Assembly (NCBI GenBank): GCA_024655885.1
Contig: JANLFN010000011.1
Coordinates: 1 to 64,000, forward strand
Direction: 5' to 3'
Length of the DNA: 64,000 nt
From: Eubacteriales bacterium
GTDB lineage: Bacteria > Bacillota > Clostridia > Acetivibrionales > JANLFN01
Position numbers and translations under genes: made by a program. Positions 28,888-41,479 of this stretch are shown here, in pieces (positions within the stretch are counted from its first letter, which is position 1; every line of letters begins with the position of its first letter). The notes beneath the pieces are model-generated. The model was not told where the DNA came from. It ran no database searches and saw only the letters and a program-made list of their open reading frames with translations.

Positions 28888-28998
28888 AGAATTTATGAAA
28901 TAGGTAAAATACGCCATGCGTGCTCAATATCAGCCGAAAAAACAACAAGGTTTCGTAAATCCTAGAGGACCATATTTTGCTTTTTAGGGGTGAAGACG

Positions 28999-29649
28999 AT
29001 GAATTCGAAAAAAAAGGTGTCCATTGCGGTTGTTAGACGTCTCCCGAGATATTACAGGTATCTTTCGGATTTGCTTGAACTTGATATAACGAGGATTTCT
29101 TCAAAGGAGCTCAGCGCCAGGATGGGTATTACGGCATCCCAGATCCGGCAGGATTTGAACTGCTTCGGCGGCTTCGGGCAGCAGGGCTACGGCTATAATG
29201 TAGAATCCCTTTTTAATGAGATAGGAAATATCCTTGGGCTAAACAATAAATTTCAAATGATCATTATCGGTGCAGGGCATATGGGCCAGGCCCTGGCCAA
29301 TTACTCCAACTTTGAAAAGAGGGGCTATAAACTGGTGGGCATATTTGATGTTGACCCGGGGCTCATCGGCAAAAAAATCAAAAACATAGAAATAGAGCAC
29401 TACGATAAACTGGAAGAGTTTGTGAAGCACCACAGGGTTGACGTAGCCATACTCAGTGTGCCTTACGACCGCACGCGGATGGTGGCCGACAAGGTTGCAA
29501 GCCTGGGAATTAAAGGTTTATGGAATTTTTCTCCCATGGATTTAAAAATCCCTTATGATGTGGTTATTGAGAATGTGCACTTGAGTGACAGCTTAATGGT
29601 ATTGGGATACCGGTTGAATGAAAAATTTAAGTGTAAAAAAAATAAGTGA
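28999..29649 (+). CDS. rex: redox-sensing repressor Rex
   Basis: 216 residues from the ATG at 28999 (AGGGG eight bases upstream; a GTG at 28990 is inside that site). The N-terminal winged helix (RRLPRYYRYLSDLLELDITR, ARMGITASQIRQDLNCFGGFG) is followed by a Rossmann NAD(H)-binding domain with IIGAGHMGQALANY. Rex leaves DNA when the NADH/NAD ratio rises, derepressing fermentation, hydrogenase and alcohol genes. TGTTAA-type repeats before the hydrogenase operon at 36.5 kb are plausible targets. It is monocistronic, with a terminator overlapping its stop codon. Confidence 0.96.
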   Translation: MNSKKKVSIAVVRRLPRYYRYLSDLLELDITRISSKELSARMGITASQIRQDLNCFGGFGQQGYGYNVESLFNEIGNILGLNNKFQMIIIGAGHMGQALANYSNFEKRGYKLVGIFDVDPGLIGKKIKNIEIEHYDKLEEFVKHHRVDVAILSVPYDRTRMVADKVASLGIKGLWNFSPMDLKIPYDVVIENVHLSDSLMVLGYRLNEKFKCKKNK

Positions 29650-33470: not shown

Positions 33471-33499
33471 AATTTACAATGATAAAGTTTAAATGTCAA
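33471..33499 (-). promoter_or_regulatory. sigma-A promoter of aroF-tyrA-aroA
   Basis: Minus-strand TTGACA (33499-33494), 17-base spacer, TAAATT (33476-33471). Confidence 0.75.
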
Positions 33500-34020
33500 T
33501 AAAATGTTCGGTTGTTGATAAAAAACTATTTAACTATTTTTAATAAATGATATAATATAGATGCTGCTTTTTCAAAATGCATAGGAAATCAGATTTCTTC
33601 TCAATTTTTTTCACAAGTGTTTCCGGCAGGCTTTAATTACCTTAAAATACTTGATTGCCGCTGAGAGCATTTTTAGGGAAGCAGCCTTAATTTGTTTTTT
33701 CAACATGTTGCTTTATTTTTACTGCCAAGATATATTAAAAAATTGCTGGTTTTCCTTTGAATTAAAAACCTGGCTTTAACCGGACAACTATGTATTTTTT
33801 TCCTCCAATGAGGCATGATATACTTGACAGCGGAAAATGGGGCTTTAGCCTTCGGCAGGGTAAAAAGGTGAAAGTGTGTAAACCTTTTTGAATATAGACC
33901 GGGCAGTGTCACAGCAAGTCGGTCAAAATCAGGTGACCTTGTCCGTTACAACTGCGGCAGCAATTTTGCAATATACGGTTCAAATTATCAACAGGAATAA
34001 ATACAAGGGGGAATATTTAT
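33500..34020. other. 520-base gene-free stretch before the EF-G paralogue
   Basis: No coding gene is visible. TTGACA at 33824 has no matching -10 box. A hairpin AAAAAGGT/ACCTTTTT (33862-33869/33882-33889) could terminate a leader, and GACCG/CGGTC arms around 33897-33925 suggest further structure. I do not recognise a known riboswitch. Confidence 0.5.
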
Positions 34021-36111
34021 ATGAAAGATTATACCGTTGAAAAGTTGCGCAACGTTTGTCTTATGTCCCATGGCGGAGCGGGTAAGACTACCCTGGCAGA
34101 AGCAATGTTGTTTAACACGGGAGTGCTTGACAGGTTTGGGAAGGTAGTGGACGGAACGACAACCACCGACTATGATCCGGAAGAAATTAAAAGGAAAATT
34201 TCTATAAGCACCGCCATAGCTCCATGTGAATGGAAGGATTATAAAATAAATATTATCGATACTCCCGGCTATTTTGATTTTGTTGGTGAAGTGAAGCAGG
34301 GCATCAGGGTGGCGGACGGCTGCATCATTCTGGTTCCTGCGAAGGGCGGAGTTGCAGTTGGAGCTGAAAAGTCCTGGGCCTATGCCAAGGACCAGGGTAT
34401 ACCCAAAATGTTTTTCGTGAGTAAAATGGACGAGGAAAATGCCAATTTCTTTGAGGTTTTGGACCAGCTGGTCAATACTTTCGGCAAAGGAGTCATTGCA
34501 TTTCAAATTCCCATAATTGAGGGGGGCAAGTTTACCGGCTTTGTTGATGTGATTAACATGCAGGGAAAAAAGTTCGACAAGGATAAGCTGGTGGATACGG
34601 CCATTCCCGCAGGCCTGAACGATAGGATTTCCGCAATAAAGGAGGCCTTGAACGAGGCCATCGCCGAGAGTGATGAAGAACTGATGGAAAAATACTTCGG
34701 CGGGGAGGAATTTACTCCCGAGGAAATCCGCAAGGGATTGCGCAATGGGATTGGAGACGGCTCCATTGTCCCCGTGTTTTGCGGTTCTGCGGCAAACAAT
34801 ATGGGCGTGCAGCCGCTGATGGACGCAGTTATAGAATATTTGCCTTCCCCTTCCGACAGACCGGCTGTAAAGGCAAAAAAACCGGGCAGCAACGAAACCA
34901 TAGAACTTAAGGCGGCAGCCGATGCACCGCTTTCCGCCATCGTATTCAAAACAGTGGCGGACCCCTTTGTAGGCAAGATTTCTCTGTTCAGGGTATACAC
35001 CGGTACATTGAAATCCGACTCGGTGGTGTATAATACAACTACCGAAAAGACTGAAAAAATCGCCAACCTTTTTATAATGAGAGGCAAAAAGCAGATTCCT
35101 GTGGATAAACTCATCGCAGGAGATATTGGAGGAGTTTCCAAGCTGCAGGCTACGAATACAAATGACACTCTCTGCGACCAGGGCAAGCCTGTTGTGCTTG
35201 ATAAGATAGAATTCCCAGAGCCGGTAATTTCCCTGGCTGTGGAGCCCAAGGCAAAGGGGGATGAAGAAAAAATAAGTTCGGGCTTGCAGAAGCTGCAGGA
35301 TGAAGATCCCACATTCAAGGTAGCCCTGAATAACGAGACGCACCAAACTCTCATTTCCGGTGTGGGAGAGCAGCACCTTGATGTGGTCGTGAGCAAGCTG
35401 AAGGCTAAATTCGGCGTATCCGTCAACCTTGTGGACCCGAAGGTCCCATACAGGGAAACCATCAGGAAAAAAGTCAAGGTGGAAGGCAAGCACAAAAAGC
35501 AGTCGGGCGGACACGGCCAGTATGGCCATGTGTGGATAGAATTCGAACCGGGTGAGAATGAGGACCTGACCTTCGAAGAAAAGATTTTCGGAGGCGCAGT
35601 GCCCAGACAATACTTCCCGGCCGTTGAAAAAGGCCTCCGTGAGGCAATCTTAAAAGGTGTTTTAGCCGGATATCCCGTTGTGAACCTGAAAGCCACCCTG
35701 GTGGATGGTTCTTTCCACCCTGTGGACTCTTCGGAAATGGCTTTTAAAATAGCCGCACGCCTGGCGTACAAGAAAGGCCTGGAGCAAGCTTCCCCGGTAT
35801 TGCTTGAGCCCATTGCCCATGTGGAGGTGTATGTGCCCGACAACTATATGGGCGATATCATCGGAGATTTGAATAAGCGCAGAGGCAGAATACTGGGTAT
35901 GAATCCGCAGGATGGGGGACTGCAGCAGGTTGTGGCCGAAGTGCCCCAGGCGGAAATGTTCAAATACGCAACGGATTTGAGGTCTATGACACAGGCGAGA
36001 GGTTTCTTCAAGCTGTGGTTTGAAAGGTATGAGGAGGCTCCTCCCAGCGTAAGCCAGAAGGTAATTGAGGAAGCCAAGAAGACAATGACTGATGAGGATG
36101 AAGACGAATAA
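34021..36111 (+). CDS. elongation factor G-like translational GTPase
   Basis: 696 residues with the full EF-G domain order: GTPase (1-270), beta-barrel domain II (300-390), domains III-V. The P-loop reads SHGGAGKTT (residues 16-24) rather than the AHIDAGKTT of FusA, and the G4 motif is SKMD rather than NKxD, which marks the EF-G-like paralogue group. G3 is DTPGYFDF. There is no str operon around it (no rpsL, rpsG or tuf), so it is not the main FusA. Paralogues act in ribosome recycling, stalled translation or under stress; the role here is open. AAGGGGG lies nine bases before the ATG. The acidic tail TDEDEDE is notable. Confidence 0.88.
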   Translation: MKDYTVEKLRNVCLMSHGGAGKTTLAEAMLFNTGVLDRFGKVVDGTTTTDYDPEEIKRKISISTAIAPCEWKDYKINIIDTPGYFDFVGEVKQGIRVADGCIILVPAKGGVAVGAEKSWAYAKDQGIPKMFFVSKMDEENANFFEVLDQLVNTFGKGVIAFQIPIIEGGKFTGFVDVINMQGKKFDKDKLVDTAIPAGLNDRISAIKEALNEAIAESDEELMEKYFGGEEFTPEEIRKGLRNGIGDGSIVPVFCGSAANNMGVQPLMDAVIEYLPSPSDRPAVKAKKPGSNETIELKAAADAPLSAIVFKTVADPFVGKISLFRVYTGTLKSDSVVYNTTTEKTEKIANLFIMRGKKQIPVDKLIAGDIGGVSKLQATNTNDTLCDQGKPVVLDKIEFPEPVISLAVEPKAKGDEEKISSGLQKLQDEDPTFKVALNNETHQTLISGVGEQHLDVVVSKLKAKFGVSVNLVDPKVPYRETIRKKVKVEGKHKKQSGGHGQYGHVWIEFEPGENEDLTFEEKIFGGAVPRQYFPAVEKGLREAILKGVLAGYPVVNLKATLVDGSFHPVDSSEMAFKIAARLAYKKGLEQASPVLLEPIAHVEVYVPDNYMGDIIGDLNKRRGRILGMNPQDGGLQQVVAEVPQAEMFKYATDLRSMTQARGFFKLWFERYEEAPPSVSQKVIEEAKKTMTDEDEDE

Positions 36112-36131
36112 ACGTGAATAAACGGTAATGG

Positions 36132-36172
36132 AAAGGGATGCTGTAAACTTATACGGCGTCCCTTTAATTTTA
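36132..36172 (+). terminator. terminator after the EF-G-like gene
   Basis: AAAGGGATGCTGTA (36132-36145) pairs with TACGGCGTCCCTTT (36152-36165) with two G-T pairs, then AATTTTA. Confidence 0.85.
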
Positions 36173-36207
36173 GATAACGTATGGAAAATTTAAAGAAAAT
36201 GTGTAAA

Positions 36208-36244
36208 AAATAACTGTCTTGCACACGCAGCACAGTTATTTTAT
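36208..36244. terminator. second terminator-like hairpin
   Basis: AAATAACTGT (36208-36217) pairs perfectly with ACAGTTATTT (36232-36241), preceded by A-run and followed by TATTG. Confidence 0.7.
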
Positions 36245-36363
36245 TGACAATCGCCTAATTTCCATAAGATTTTACCTGATCTTAAATTCCATGTCGATTT
36301 CTATCAATGTTCATAAATAAATACAATAAATCTAAATATGTTTATATAAATTTCTATCAATCT

Positions 36364-36381
36364 TTGTTAATATTTTGATAA
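36364..36381. promoter_or_regulatory. possible Rex operator
   Basis: TTGTTAA-TATT-TTGATAA matches the clostridial Rex pattern TTGTTAA-N4-TTAACAA in 12 of 14 arm positions. It lies about 200 bases upstream of the hydrogenase promoter. Confidence 0.5.
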
Positions 36382-36500
36382 AGTTATGATTTTACTGGCC
36401 TTTCAACAGCGAAATTTTCAAAAAGCATATTTACAAAACAGCAAATGTACAAATATAAATACATAAGGCGTAAGGGGATGGACCTTGAATAGAAGCAAAC

Positions 36501-36552
36501 ATTGTTAAATGAAACCACAAAGATTGTTAATTAAATGCGTAAAGACTGTTAA
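36501..36552 (+). repeat. three TGTTAA direct repeats, 22-base period
   Basis: TTGTTAA at 36502 and 36524 and CTGTTAA at 36546 are spaced exactly 22 bases, two helical turns, and the first two units also share a trailing AAAG. The third ends 13 bases before the -35 box. They look like phased binding sites for a regulator of the hydrogenase operon. Confidence 0.75.
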
Positions 36553-36564
36553 TATTTAAATTAA

Positions 36565-36593
36565 TTGACAATTATATTCCCGGGGACTAAAAT
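36565..36593 (+). promoter_or_regulatory. sigma-A promoter of the hydrogenase operon
   Basis: TTGACA (36565-36570), 17-base spacer, TAAAAT (36588-36593). The leader to hndA is about 220 bases and contains TTGTAT-TTCTT-ATACAA (near 36751) and TGTTAACA (near 36738). Confidence 0.85.
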
Positions 36594-36819
36594 TATTAAA
36601 TATCAGATGAACAATGTATACAAAATAGGCTGTCAGACGTTTCTTGGATAGAGAGTGAAAATTGTCATAGCATAGCTCCGGAATATAGAAGAACTGGTAT
36701 ATAAACCACGAGGTAGTGCAACCGGAAAACGGTATTATGTTAACAAAAGGTTGTATTTCTTATACAAGCGAGGCAGAATTAATGAATAAAAATATATAAC
36801 TTGTAAAGGGGTTTTAAAA

Positions 36820-37317
36820 ATGAGTGTAGCTGGCGAATGCTGCTGTGGAAATGTGGATACAAGGGAACAGAAGCTTACGGAAATTATAGAAAAGTATAAA
36901 AACACCAAGGGGGCATTAATTCCGGTGCTGCATGAAGCACAGGAGCTGTACGGCTATCTTCCCTTAAAGGTGCAGAAAAAGATTTCGGAGGGGTTGGACG
37001 TACCGCTTGCTGAAATTTATGGGGTTGTGACGTTTTATACCCAATTTTCACTGAATGCGAAAGGCAAGTATAAGATACAGGTATGCCTGGGAACCGCGTG
37101 CTATGTCAAGGGGTCCAGCAAGGTGCTGGACAAACTGAGGGAAAAGCTGGGAATCAATGTGGGAGAATGTACCGAAGATGGCCTGTTTTCCCTGGACGCA
37201 TGCCGGTGTGTCGGGGCTTGCGGTTTGGCGCCGGTGATGATGATTAATGACGACGTCTATGGGAGACTGACTGTGGATGATGTGGAAGGGATTATTGAAA
37301 AGTACAGGAACAAATGA
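36820..37317 (+). CDS. hndA: hydrogenase subunit HndA/HydC-like (NuoE family)
   Basis: 165 residues of the NuoE/thioredoxin-like [2Fe-2S] family. Helical N-terminal part (LIPVLHEAQELYGYLP, IYGVVTFYTQF) and ligands in CLGTACYVKG and DACRCVGACGLAP, giving the usual four cysteines. It passes electrons between the flavin subunit and the rest of the complex. The extra N-terminal CCCG is unusual. AAGGGG lies eight bases before the ATG. First gene of hndABCD. Confidence 0.92.
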   Translation: MSVAGECCCGNVDTREQKLTEIIEKYKNTKGALIPVLHEAQELYGYLPLKVQKKISEGLDVPLAEIYGVVTFYTQFSLNAKGKYKIQVCLGTACYVKGSSKVLDKLREKLGINVGECTEDGLFSLDACRCVGACGLAPVMMINDDVYGRLTVDDVEGIIEKYRNK

Positions 37318-37389: not shown

Positions 37390-37773
37390 ATGAAGACAAT
37401 AACTGAGCTGGAGGAAATAAGAAAGAGGACCCTGGAAAAAATAAAACCGGGAACAAACAGCAACAGGCTGAGAATCCTGGTGGGAATGGCAACCTGTGGG
37501 ATAGCGGCGGGTGCAAGGCCGGTCATGAATGCCTTTATAGAAGAATTAAAGAAAAGGAACATAAGCGATGTGACCGTTACTATGACAGGATGCATCGGTG
37601 CTTGCAGGCTTGAGCCCATTGTAGAAGTAATAGACTCCGACGGGAGACGGGTCACCTATGTCAAAATGACCGAGGAGAAAGCAGCCCGGGTGGTGGTTGA
37701 ACACATTGTAAACGGCCGGGTGTGCGTCGACTATACCATCGGTGAGGCGGAAAGGAAAACGGCGGAAGGCTGA
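37390..37773 (+). CDS. hndB: hydrogenase subunit HndB-like (2Fe-2S thioredoxin fold)
   Basis: 127 residues from the ATG at 37390 (GGAGG upstream). Thioredoxin-like [2Fe-2S] ferredoxin with cysteines in GMATCGIAAGARP and MTGCIGACRLEP, as in HndB of Desulfovibrio and clostridia. It is a small electron-transfer subunit. It follows hndA by 72 bases; the 139-base gap to hndC holds a copy of an interspersed repeat, which does not contain an obvious promoter. Confidence 0.9.
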   Translation: MKTITELEEIRKRTLEKIKPGTNSNRLRILVGMATCGIAAGARPVMNAFIEELKKRNISDVTVTMTGCIGACRLEPIVEVIDSDGRRVTYVKMTEEKAARVVVEHIVNGRVCVDYTIGEAERKTAEG

Positions 37774-37912: not shown

Positions 37913-39709
37913 ATGCAAATATATAGGGCACATGTGCTGATTTGCGGGGGGACCGGATGTACCTCTTCCGGGTCCGAAAACGTGAAGAAGGAATTTGAAG
38001 AACAATTAAAAAAGCATCATTTGGAAAATGAGGTCCAAATTGTGGGGACAGGGTGTTTCGGCTTGTGTGCCAGAGGTCCTGTCGTGGTGGTATACCCTGA
38101 AGGGGCCATGTACACCATGGTGCGGGTAGAGGATGTAGAAGAAATCGTCACCGAGCACCTCTTAAAGGGGCGGATGGTCCGGAGGCTTTTGGCAGGGGGC
38201 CAGGAGGCAGGAGATGTCACCCAATCCCTGGACAAAGTGGACTTTTTCAAAAAGCAGTTGAGGATTGCCCTGAGGAACTGTGGAATCATCAACCCGGAGG
38301 ACATTGACGAGTACATCGCCTTTGACGGGTACAAAGCCCTTACCAAAGTCCTCACCGAAATGACCCCGGAGCAGGTCATCGACACCGTGAAGAGGTCGGG
38401 GCTGAGAGGAAGGGGAGGAGCGGGATTCCCCACGGGGTTGAAATGGGAGTTCGCCGCCAGGCAGCAGAACGAGACCAAATACGTGTGCTGCAATGCGGAT
38501 GAAGGAGACCCGGGAGCCTTCATGGACCGGAGTGTCCTGGAAGGAGACCCCCATTCGGTTATTGAGGCCATGATCATCGCAGGGTACGCCATCGGGGCGC
38601 ACCAGGGCTTCATCTATGTGAGGGCCGAATACCCCATCGCTGTGAAGCGGCTGGAGATTGCCATAGGGCAGGCTAAAGAATACGGGCTGCTGGGGAAGAA
38701 CATCCTGGGGACGGGTTTTGCCTTTGACCTTGAACTGAGGCTGGGGGCAGGGGCCTTTGTATGTGGAGAGGAAACCGCCCTTATGACCTCCATCGAAGGG
38801 CACCGGGGAGAGCCGAGGCCTAGGCCGCCCTTCCCGGCCGTAAAGGGTCTGTGGGGGAAACCCACCATTCTCAACAACGTAGAAACCTTTGCCAACATTC
38901 CCAGGATCATCCTCAACGGGGCAGAGTGGTTTGCGGGCATCGGCACCGAGAGGAGCAAAGGCACCAAAGTCTTTGCCATGGGAGGAAAAATAAACAACAC
39001 GGGGCTGCTGGAAGTCCCCATGGGGACCACCCTAAGGGAGGTCATCTACGACATCGGGGGAGGGATTCCCGGAGGGAAGAAATTCAAGGCCGCCCAGACC
39101 GGAGGGCCGTCGGGAGGATGCATTCCTGCCAGCCATATCGACACGCCCATCGAATATGACACCTTGGTCCAGCTGGGGTCTATGATGGGCTCCGGAGGAC
39201 TTATCGTCATGGACGAAGACACCTGCATGGTGGACATCGCCCGGTACTTCCTGGACTTCACTGTGGACGAATCCTGCGGGAAATGTCCACCATGCCGCAT
39301 TGGCACCAAGAGGATGCTGGAAATACTGGAGAGGATTACCGGGGGCAAGGGAGAAGAAGGAGACATTGAGAAGCTGGAGACCCTGGCCAAAAACATCAAG
39401 GCCTCCGCTCTGTGCGCCCTGGGGCAGTCGGCGCCTAACCCGGTGCTGAGCACCTTAAGGTACTTCCGGGACGAATATGAAGCCCACGTGAAAGAAAAGA
39501 GATGCCCGGCGGGCGTATGCAAAGCCATGATGAAATACGTCATCAACGCGGACAGCTGCAAAAGCTGCGGCATCTGTGCCAAGAACTGTCCTGTGGGGGC
39601 CATTGAGGGAGAGAAAAAAGTACCGTACCGCATTGATCAGGACAAGTGCATCAAATGCGGGACATGCATGGAAAAATGTCCATTCAAGGCCATATTCAAA
39701 AACGTGTAG
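37913..39709 (+). CDS. hndC: hydrogenase flavin subunit HndC/HydB-like (NuoF family)
   Basis: 598 residues. An N-terminal [2Fe-2S] thioredoxin-like domain (CGGTGCTSSGS, GTGCFGLC) is followed by the NuoF core: GRGGAGFPTGLKWEFA and NADEGDPGAFMDR for NAD(H) and FMN, CGEETALMTSIEG, and SCGKCPPCRIGTKRML for [4Fe-4S]. The C-terminus has a 2[4Fe-4S] ferredoxin: CKSCGICAKNCPVGAI and CIKCGTCMEKCPFKAI. It is the probable site of electron bifurcation or NAD reduction. Codons end in G or C much more often than in neighbouring genes, as in hndD, possibly reflecting high expression. hndD starts 18 bases later. Confidence 0.95.
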   Translation: MQIYRAHVLICGGTGCTSSGSENVKKEFEEQLKKHHLENEVQIVGTGCFGLCARGPVVVVYPEGAMYTMVRVEDVEEIVTEHLLKGRMVRRLLAGGQEAGDVTQSLDKVDFFKKQLRIALRNCGIINPEDIDEYIAFDGYKALTKVLTEMTPEQVIDTVKRSGLRGRGGAGFPTGLKWEFAARQQNETKYVCCNADEGDPGAFMDRSVLEGDPHSVIEAMIIAGYAIGAHQGFIYVRAEYPIAVKRLEIAIGQAKEYGLLGKNILGTGFAFDLELRLGAGAFVCGEETALMTSIEGHRGEPRPRPPFPAVKGLWGKPTILNNVETFANIPRIILNGAEWFAGIGTERSKGTKVFAMGGKINNTGLLEVPMGTTLREVIYDIGGGIPGGKKFKAAQTGGPSGGCIPASHIDTPIEYDTLVQLGSMMGSGGLIVMDEDTCMVDIARYFLDFTVDESCGKCPPCRIGTKRMLEILERITGGKGEEGDIEKLETLAKNIKASALCALGQSAPNPVLSTLRYFRDEYEAHVKEKRCPAGVCKAMMKYVINADSCKSCGICAKNCPVGAIEGEKKVPYRIDQDKCIKCGTCMEKCPFKAIFKNV

Positions 39710-39727: not shown

Positions 39728-41479
39728 ATGGAAACAGTCAACATCACCATCGACGGAAGAAAACTGCAGGTACCGGGGAACTATACCGTGCTGGAAGCAG
39801 CCAAGCAGGCCAACATCGCCATACCCACCCTGTGCTTCCTGAAAGACATCAATGAAATCGGGGCCTGCCGGATGTGCGTCGTAGAAATCCAGGGGGCGAG
39901 AAGCCTGCAGGCCGCGTGCGTCTACCCTGTCTCCGAGGGATTAGTCATCAACACCCAGACCCCTGCCGTCCGCGAATCCAGGAAAGTCACCCTGGAGCTC
40001 ATCCTGTCCAACCATGACCGGAAATGCCTCACCTGTGTGCGGAGCAACAACTGTGAGCTGCAGAAGCTGGCCGAGGAACTCAACATCAGCGACGTGCGGT
40101 TTGAAGGAGAGACCTACCGGCTGCCCGTCGACCACCTGTCGCCGTCCGTTGTCCGGGACCCCAACAAATGCATCCTGTGCCGGCGGTGTATCAGCATGTG
40201 CAAAAACATCCAGAAAGTAGGCGTCATCGATACCAGCCAGAGGGGCTTCAAGACCATCGTATCCTCCGCCTTCAACCAGTCCCTGGCTGAAGTGCCTTGC
40301 ATCAACTGCGGGCAGTGCATCACCGTATGTCCCGTAGGAGCCCTCAGAGAAAAGGACGATACCGACCGGGTATGGGAGGCGCTGGCTAACCCGGAGCTGC
40401 ACGTCGTCGTGCAGACTGCGCCGGCCGTCAGGGTGGCCCTGGGAGAAGAATTCGGCCTGCCCATCGGCAGCCGGGTCACCAGCCAGATGGTGGCGGCCCT
40501 CAAGAGGCTGGGATTCAGCAAAGTCTTCGACACCGACACCGCGGCAGACCTGACCATCATGGAGGAGGGGACCGAACTGCTGGAGAGGCTGAAAAACGGA
40601 GGAAAGCTGCCTCTCATCACCTCATGCAGCCCGGGATGGATTAAATACTGCGAACACAACTACCCCGAATTCCTAGACAACCTGTCCAGCTGCAAATCGC
40701 CCCATGAAATGTTCGGGGCCGTATTGAAATCCTACTATGCCCAAAAACAGGGGATAGACCCGGACAAAATCTTTGTCGTGTCCATCATGCCGTGTACCGC
40801 TAAGAAATTTGAGGCCAAACGGCCGGAACTGGCAGCCACGGGGCGCCCGGATGTGGACGTGGTATTGACCACCCGGGAGCTGGCGAGAATGATCCGGGAA
40901 GCGGGCATCGACTTTACAGGACTGCCGGAGGGGCACTTTGACGACCCCATGGGAGAGGCCACAGGAGCAGGAGTCATCTTCGGGGCCACCGGAGGAGTCA
41001 TGGAGGCTGCGCTGAGGACTGTGGCGGAAATCCTGGAAGGAAAGCCCGTAGACAACATCGAATACACAGCCGTCCGGGGGACCGAAGGGATCAAGGAAGC
41101 CGTCGTAGAAGCCGGAGGAATCAAAATCAAGGCGGCGGTAGCCCACGGCACGGGGAACGCCAAAAAGCTGCTGGAGCGGATCAAGGCGGGAGAGGCAGAG
41201 TACCATTTCGTAGAAATCATGGCATGCCCGGGGGGCTGCGTGACCGGAGGAGGACAGCCCATTCAGCCGTCGAAGGTAAGGAGCTGGGTAGACCTGAGGA
41301 AGGAGAGGGCCAAAGCCATCTATGAAGAGGATAGGAACATGCCCATCCGGAAGTCCCATGAAAATCCGAAGGTCAAAATGCTGTACGAGGAGTACTTTGA
41401 GAAGCCGGGGAGCCATAGGGCCCATGAGCTGCTGCATACCCACTACACCCAGAGGGAGAACTACCCCGAGGCCAGGTGA
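39728..41479 (+). CDS. hndD: [FeFe] hydrogenase catalytic subunit HndD/HydA-like
   Basis: 583 residues. It makes or oxidises H2. Accessory clusters in order: N-terminal [2Fe-2S] (GACRMCVVEI), His-ligated [4Fe-4S] (HDRKCLTCVRSNNC), two [4Fe-4S] (CILCRRCISMC, CINCGQCITVCP). H-cluster motifs: L1 TSCSPGW (residues 298-304), L2 MPCTAKKFEA and L3 EIMACPGGCVTGGGQP. L1 has Ser at the second position of the usual Cys pair. Together with hndABC it should form a cytoplasmic, probably electron-bifurcating complex coupling ferredoxin, NAD(H) and H2. GGAAAGGGGAG is the ribosome site. Last gene of the operon; the terminator is at 41713. Confidence 0.95.
   Translation: METVNITIDGRKLQVPGNYTVLEAAKQANIAIPTLCFLKDINEIGACRMCVVEIQGARSLQAACVYPVSEGLVINTQTPAVRESRKVTLELILSNHDRKCLTCVRSNNCELQKLAEELNISDVRFEGETYRLPVDHLSPSVVRDPNKCILCRRCISMCKNIQKVGVIDTSQRGFKTIVSSAFNQSLAEVPCINCGQCITVCPVGALREKDDTDRVWEALANPELHVVVQTAPAVRVALGEEFGLPIGSRVTSQMVAALKRLGFSKVFDTDTAADLTIMEEGTELLERLKNGGKLPLITSCSPGWIKYCEHNYPEFLDNLSSCKSPHEMFGAVLKSYYAQKQGIDPDKIFVVSIMPCTAKKFEAKRPELAATGRPDVDVVLTTRELARMIREAGIDFTGLPEGHFDDPMGEATGAGVIFGATGGVMEAALRTVAEILEGKPVDNIEYTAVRGTEGIKEAVVEAGGIKIKAAVAHGTGNAKKLLERIKAGEAEYHFVEIMACPGGCVTGGGQPIQPSKVRSWVDLRKERAKAIYEEDRNMPIRKSHENPKVKMLYEEYFEKPGSHRAHELLHTHYTQRENYPEAR

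Follow-up and report, generated by a model that had tools for sequence, protein, structure and literature searches.

Hydrogenases linked to both NADH and ferredoxin provide an electron outlet in fermenters of this kind. One of the closest described control elements is the Rex operator (TTGTTAANNNNTTAACAA) found before clostridial hydrogenase operons, which shares the word TTGTTAA with the repeat array described here and which occurs in many relatives as tandem sites 21-22 bp apart, similar to the 22-bp period of the array. In contrast, the array consists of direct repeats and holds no inverted right half. An iron-only hydrogenase operon of Clostridium thermocellum (PMC8457756) and hydrogenase genes of Caldicellulosiruptor bescii (PMC6391272) are Rex targets.

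Some boxes recognized by response regulators also resemble the array. In Escherichia coli, TGTTAA is the core recognized by ArcA (PMC7303359), and additional repeats are located 11 or 22 bp away around a core 11-bp pair (PMC3798270). The ArcA box TGTTAA(N5)TGTTAA has in common with this locus the TGTTAA core, the extra repeats at 22 bp and the association with redox genes, but in the latter study each ArcA site is cored by an 11-bp pair, which the array lacks. In the Pho (PhoP/PhoB) box of this bacterial order, half-sites score like the copies of the array, whereas the period is 11 and not 22 bp, and the gene served is a phosphate gene and not a hydrogenase. Direct repeats of the LytTR type, whose spacing in the surveyed systems is usually 12 bp and less often 11 or 13 bp, and which tend to lie 10 bp before the −35 box (PMC6193735), share with the array its period and its distance to the −35 box, while their consensus sequence is matched only partly. 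In the titles and abstracts searched, a scope that most subscription papers fall outside, 22-bp TGTTAA repeats before a hydrogenase were not found.

The hydrogenase operon and the repeats before it

The window, that is, the whole 64-kb stretch of DNA analysed, encodes on the + strand an A6-type hydrogenase operon with the order hydC-Fd-hydB-hydA (Table 1). A terminator-like hairpin (36132-36165) is located just 3' of the EF-G-like gene, and ~700 bp of AT-rich DNA separate this hairpin region from hydC. This gap also holds a 23-nt direct repeat (36297-36372), with copies 53 bp apart and 83% alike, and a three-copy tandem repeat with a period of 16 (36405-36453). Among 80 related hydC loci, which reach up to 6 kb upstream of hydC and in some cases far less, an EF-G gene beside hydC is represented by a single distant match (24%). 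Rfam revealed only five tRNAs in the 64 kb, and a structured leader RNA before hydC was rejected, as 193 of 200 shuffles fold equally well or better.

Table 1. Position of the genes and sequence elements discussed in the text (window coordinates)
Feature	Position	Strand	Basis
rex, redox-sensing repressor	28990..29649	+	PF06971; NF003990 above cut-off
EF-G-like gene upstream of the hydC gap	34021..36111	+	annotated from sequence scans
Near-Rex palindrome TTGTTAATATTTTGATAA, 2/14 mismatches to TTGTTAANNNNTTAACAA	36364..36381	.	consensus and matrix scans
Repeat 1 AAACATTGTTAA (TGTTAA 36503-36508)	36497..36508	+	sequence
Repeat 2 AAAGATTGTTAA (TGTTAA 36525-36530), then TTAAATGCGTAA	36519..36530	+	sequence
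Repeat 3 AAAGACTGTTAA (TGTTAA 36547-36552)	36541..36552	+	sequence
Sigma-A-type promoter TTGACA-N17-TAAAAT (−10 at 36588-36593)	36565..36593	+	consensus scan, 11/12 bases
hydC (NuoE-like subunit)	36820..37317	+	NCBIfam TIGR01958 above cut-off
2Fe-2S ferredoxin-like protein	37390..37773	+	NCBIfam weak matches, below cut-off
hydB (NuoF-like subunit)	37913..39709	+	NCBIfam NF010120 above cut-off
hydA, NADH-dependent [FeFe] hydrogenase group A6	39728..41479	+	NF040763, 940 bits, cut-off 765

Three copies of TGTTAA, spaced exactly 22 + 22 bp, precede a promoter that was recovered with the pattern TTGACA-N16..18-TATAAT, and the transcription start of the operon is presumed to lie near 36600. Each hexamer is embedded in a longer repeat (YAAASAYTGTTAA), and the 13-nt copies (CAAACATTGTTAA, CAAAGATTGTTAA and TAAAGACTGTTAA) are identical in 10 of 13 columns. 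A previous sequence-only reading had placed the half-sites at 36502, 36524 and 36546. The three copies and their spacing hold, although TGTTAA itself starts one base later, the bases at those positions beginning TTGTTAA, TTGTTAA and CTGTTAA. Its placement of the repeats on one DNA face is fair, because 22 bp approximates two helical turns, and the repeats do run up to the −35 box, the last copy ending 12 bp before the TTGACA hexamer.

Chance explains this array poorly. The window has no excess of the word TGTTAA (26 observed, 35.5 expected), and none of 1000 dinucleotide shuffles of 36112-36819 produced an equally spaced TGTTAA triple; a triple of any hexamer (spacing 8-45) appeared in 31 of 1000. 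The 10 identical columns of 13 were reached in 0/400 of these shuffles and, for three equally spaced copies with a period of 10-40, in 18 of 20,000 first-order Markov sequences. Moreover, 0.11 triples with up to 3 mismatches are expected in the whole window, where 2 were found, one of them mismatch-free. With a frequency of about one in 1000 per gap, a genome may well contain a few arrays of this kind by chance, so that the statistic supports a function but does not prove it.

It is nevertheless possible that no dedicated regulator is involved, and that the repeats are an AT-rich upstream element bound by the alpha subunits of RNA polymerase, or a decayed tandem duplication, in front of a strong constitutive promoter. 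The promoter, with 11 of the 12 consensus bases, the 70% A+T content of the region, the 73% likeness of copies 1 and 2 over 22 nt, and the 31 shuffles with some equally spaced hexamer are all consistent with this explanation, which is nearly as probable as the response regulator box proposed below, given the near-perfect promoter and the absence of conservation. Against it stand the rarity of 10 identical columns in three copies (the 18 sequences mentioned above), the fact that identity among the copies is sharpest at TGTTAA and not in the A-tracts, and the result of Tandem Repeats Finder, which reported no 22-bp array.

The sequence-only reading had also suggested looking for the 22-bp pattern before other redox genes. 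The perfect triple occurs only once in the genome, but a search allowing up to 3 mismatches gave 17 matches versus 6 in the reversed control, and the sole place with 2 mismatches (L134; C57:119174-119245) is flanked by an operon labelled flavodoxin-like by our own reading. This 22-bp TGTTAA-like array is situated between that operon and a divergent alkaline phosphatase gene (Pfam), and its TGTTAA words point at the flavodoxin-like operon, away from the alkaline phosphatase gene. In the window, a weak 11-bp/22-bp TGTTAA-like array (3 mismatches) precedes the EF-G-like gene at 33494-33543. At 0-2 mismatches, the 13-mer pair is absent from the 59 other genomes searched, none of which belongs to the same genus, and this absence, like that of a second perfect array in the genome, also fits a promoter with no regulator. 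A regulon defined by the 13-mer pair outside the own genome was discarded, as the 16 matches, all with 3 mismatches, compare with 14 in the reversed control; since these outside matches are at control level, the array has no support from conservation.

Rex-like sites in relatives and the split operon

The relatives used for comparison are the best 80 of 470 hydC relatives found (L036-L115; rows L007, L009-L011, L014, L017, L026, L027, L029, L031, L034 and L035 were left out of all counts). In 72 of the 80, a Rex-like palindrome with up to 2 mismatches is present within 250 nt before hydC, often just 3' of a TTGAAT-N17-TATAAT promoter. In 31 of 79 hydC loci of relatives, the best Rex-like palindrome is accompanied by a second one no more than 60 bp away. 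Among the 33 tandem spacings listed, a distance of 21 bp accounts for 18 and one of 22 bp for 4, and many of the second sites overlie the −10 box, so the paired palindromes are likely double operators. The hydC gene of the window does not show a Rex-like palindrome as in these relatives, the best one within 420 nt having 4 mismatches, and no Rex site was found at the promoter of its operon.

The sequence-only reading had considered that Rex may bind the repeats cooperatively in an unusual way, which would make the array a degraded series of Rex operators in tandem. A rex gene is present in the window, and the period fits the spacing of 21-22 bp predominant among the tandem sites of relatives. 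The same reading had correctly pointed out that direct repeats differ from the classic Rex palindrome; the inverted right half is missing, and no 18-bp Rex palindrome has both halves at the repeats. Using a matrix built with the 42 distinct sequences among the 72 sites of the relatives, the three repeats score -10.5, -3.8 and +2.7, compared with at least 11.9 for those 72 sites, which were picked by consensus likeness and owe their own high scores partly to this construction. As these values are far below those of the relatives, the interpretation of the repeats as a Rex array was rejected, and we consider Rex binding to them very improbable. Good Rex palindromes elsewhere in the genome also suggest that the specificity of Rex is unchanged. 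Rex sites with 3 mismatches are not enriched genome-wide (296 versus 395 reversed).

The near-Rex palindrome announced at 36364 does exist. Palindromes of this grade are expected by chance 0.41 times per 64 kb and are present in 34 of 100 shuffles, while its Rex score of 11.66, the best in the 64 kb, is reached by 2.1% of 3000 shuffled gaps; it may be a weak Rex site, although a borderline one. Rex could still act on the operon through weak palindromes of this type, with the repeats serving otherwise, an explanation that we regard as possible but rather unlikely; it is compatible with the other ones, and its probability is not to be added to theirs. The second and third best Rex scores of the 64 kb are in the same gap (36729, 7.8; 36233, 6.1), three sites scoring at least 6.13 occur together in 0.07% of 3000 shuffled gaps (a threshold chosen afterwards), and in relative L058 the Rex-like site differs from the palindrome at 36364 by a single base. 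However, none of the three is at the promoter. The palindrome at 36364, with its 2 mismatches and the chance expectation already given, lies ~185 bp upstream of it, where a repressor would not block the polymerase, and the site at 36729 is ~130 bp beyond the start presumed for transcription. A consensus scan near 36364 revealed no promoter on the + strand.

The presumed leader contains the inverted repeat TTGTAT-N5-ATACAA at 36751-36767, ~50 bp before hydC, which is possibly a worn Rex site, not significant as such. Homology of the leader to the promoters of relatives, which a MAFFT alignment suggested at 36729-36767 in the form of a worn −10 box and a Rex site, is regarded as unproven, as 4 of 100 shuffles align equally; in a homology scan of the hydC gap, the top z was 3.4 and the best two stretches were those sharing TTGTTAA.

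Comparison with a relative of the same family provides the firmer result of this analysis. In L046, whose gene order is our own reading, a hydrogenase-like sensor, a small gene and a PHP gene are followed by a promoter, hydC, a kinase-like ATPase, the 2Fe-2S protein and hydB, and the promoter before hydC has tandem Rex-like sites. In contig C39 of the genome studied here, the order is sensor, PHP gene, Rex-type promoter, kinase-like ATPase and 2Fe-2S protein (named from NCBIfam matches that stay under the cut-offs and by likeness to L046), and in the 15 kb read at this locus there is no hydC, hydB or hydA of this type. The C39 promoter, TTGATT-N17-TATAAT, holds two Rex palindromes 21 bp apart that score 16.1 and 15.4, one of them over the −10 box (L153:12531-12618; G000 contig C39, ~129530-129617). 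The window carries these absent genes together with another copy of the 2Fe-2S gene, 75% identical to that of C39. Because the Rex-type promoter of C39 precedes the kinase-like gene and the ferredoxin where relatives have hydC, the hydrogenase operon is read as split, with the window genes separated from a Rex-type promoter like the ancestral one, which the genome still contains. The HydB tree, made to tell vertical descent from transfer, places the row of the window in an unresolved fork, so that the operon may have moved within the genome or entered from outside. With either origin, the predicted promoter that the hydrogenase genes now have lacks the tandem Rex operators seen in the relatives.

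A second A6-type hydrogenase operon is encoded just upstream on C39, with a hydC-like protein 49% identical to that of the window, and a third hydC-like gene is located on C57. Rex palindromes precede both of these hydC-like genes (C39:120150, score 17.5; C57:165082, score 17.0), which suggests that hydrogenases of this genome are still controlled by Rex. The only perfect Rex palindrome of the genome (L116; C39:125844-125861) is upstream of the operon with the hydrogenase-like sensor.

Candidate regulators of the array

The genome contains an 11-bp TGTTAA array of four copies in a row, with 0 mismatches, before its own pit/DUF47 operon (L147; C9:81609-81657), and another one with 3 mismatches in the gap between pstB-phoU and pstS, as we read these genes (L151; C39:102673-102713); both are probable Pho boxes. 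Up to 3 mismatches, there are 6 such arrays in the genome versus 3 in the reversed control, one of them between leuB and a peptide-type transporter and not at a phosphate gene. A search of 60 genomes for four-fold arrays at 11 bp, allowing up to 2 mismatches, yielded 48 matches versus 19 reversed, and 12 of the 30 loci examined (two of which, L201 and L202, are off register) are beside genes read as phosphate genes. The Pfam families beside eight arrays were PHO4 (two), Na_Pi_cotrans (one), PhoU_div (two), PBP_like_2 (two) and ABC_tran (one); PHO4, Na_Pi_cotrans or PhoU_div accompany 5 arrays, whereas PBP_like_2, whose fold is not specific to phosphate, accompanies 2 or 3. The 11-bp TGTTAA array is here taken for the Pho box of this order.

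A Pho matrix was constructed with 12 arrays chosen by the phosphate gene read alongside, 8 of them Pfam-scanned and four (L195, L196, L203 and L207) named from likeness only. With this matrix, the three repeats before hydC score 9.7, 8.8 and 7.2, compared with a median of 9.6 for Pho repeats, and the array is by far the best 22-bp triple of the window (25.8; next, 8.2). In contrast, the positions shifted by 11 bp, between and after the repeats, score -13.7, -3.1 and -10.5. The worst repeat in the Pho arrays used scores -4.2, so that two of these values are below it and the third is hardly above. If read as an 11-bp array, the hydrogenase site ranks only fifth in the window (2.5 versus a best of 7.8). 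The genome encodes 12 Trans_reg_C domains (PF00486), one of them beside phoU-pst genes. Its PhoP-type regulator maps to the region of C39:100205.

According to these data, our tentative preference, at less than even confidence, is to read the array as a box of direct repeats at 22-bp spacing recognized by an OmpR/PhoB-family response regulator, most likely one of the PhoP type or a sibling sharing its half-site. Apart from the scores and the domains just mentioned, this proposal draws on the 11-bp TGTTA arrays that mark phosphate genes in this genome and in the set of 60, on the excess of 22-bp triples over their reversed control, with the 2-mismatch place by alkaline phosphatase, and on family member ArcA of E. 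coli, whose sites combine a TGTTAA core with extra repeats at 22 bp. By a count made by eye, repeat 2 and its sequel match a footprinted ArcA site (TGTTAAGTAAATGTTAA) in 13 of 17 bases. On the other hand, the usual 11-bp partner is absent from the array, and in the study of ArcA the 22-bp repeat is an addition to the 11-bp pair. The search for 11-bp arrays in the own genome exceeded its control by 6 to 3 only, with one match at a non-phosphate locus; the TGTTAA words at alkaline phosphatase face away from that gene; outside the own genome the 13-mer pair remains at control level; and since the promoter is nearly perfect, an activator should be unneeded. As for the suggestion that another redox regulator acts here, a regulator other than Rex is indeed likelier, but its redox character is unsupported, the nearest match of the half-site in this genome and order being the phosphate box.

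The geometry of the array also fits a LytTR-type regulator acting on direct repeats with a 12-13 bp spacer, as the repeats can be read as 9-10 bp long, 12-13 bp apart and 11 bp before the −35 box. A single LytTR domain was found in the genome, inside an agr-like cluster of contig C57 (L180:4675-7541) encoding a LytTR response regulator, a kinase-like protein and an AgrB-like protein, with matches to the AgrA and AgrB models that do not reach the cut-offs. An AgrA-like regulator is nonetheless an improbable candidate. Compared with a consensus that we take to be that of LytTR sites, the copies match at 6, 7 and 8 of 9 positions, and the best hydrogenase pair, with 15/18, is one among 12 pairs that reach 15 or more in the 64 kb. 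The pairs near the agr-like genes (L180:4167, 16/18; L180:4511, 14/18, ~160 bp before the regulator gene) use words unlike those of the hydrogenase array. Furthermore, AgrA promoters are described as having poor −35/−10 spacing (PMC4227749), unlike the ideal spacing of the hydrogenase promoter.

If the array is an OmpR/PhoB-family box, it would act from a position 5' of the −35 box in the promoter now serving the hydrogenase genes, which lie apart from their ancestral Rex-type promoter. Each dimer would place one subunit on a strong TGTTAA and the other one on poorly matching DNA 11 bp on, and three dimers, aligned on one face and centred near −94, −72 and −50, would touch the RNA polymerase. 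The array, promoter hexamers, operon, Rex gene, two-palindrome promoter of C39 and Pho-like half-site scores are read from the sequence; that a protein binds, which protein it may be and the direction of its effect are inferences.

Implications

Taken one step further, control of the bifurcating hydrogenase might have passed in this lineage from Rex, with its sensing of NADH, to a two-component system that responds to phosphate or to another input, through OmpR/PhoB half-sites at a double turn without the 11-bp partner, in genes parted from their Rex-type promoter; this scenario is conceivable, with a probability that we judge to be low. Structural genes leaving a Rex-type promoter behind would represent a natural case of regulatory rewiring, in which the Rex-type promoter remaining in the same genome provides an internal control. 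An array that functions as an OmpR/PhoB box in the absence of 11-bp partners would widen the definition of such boxes.
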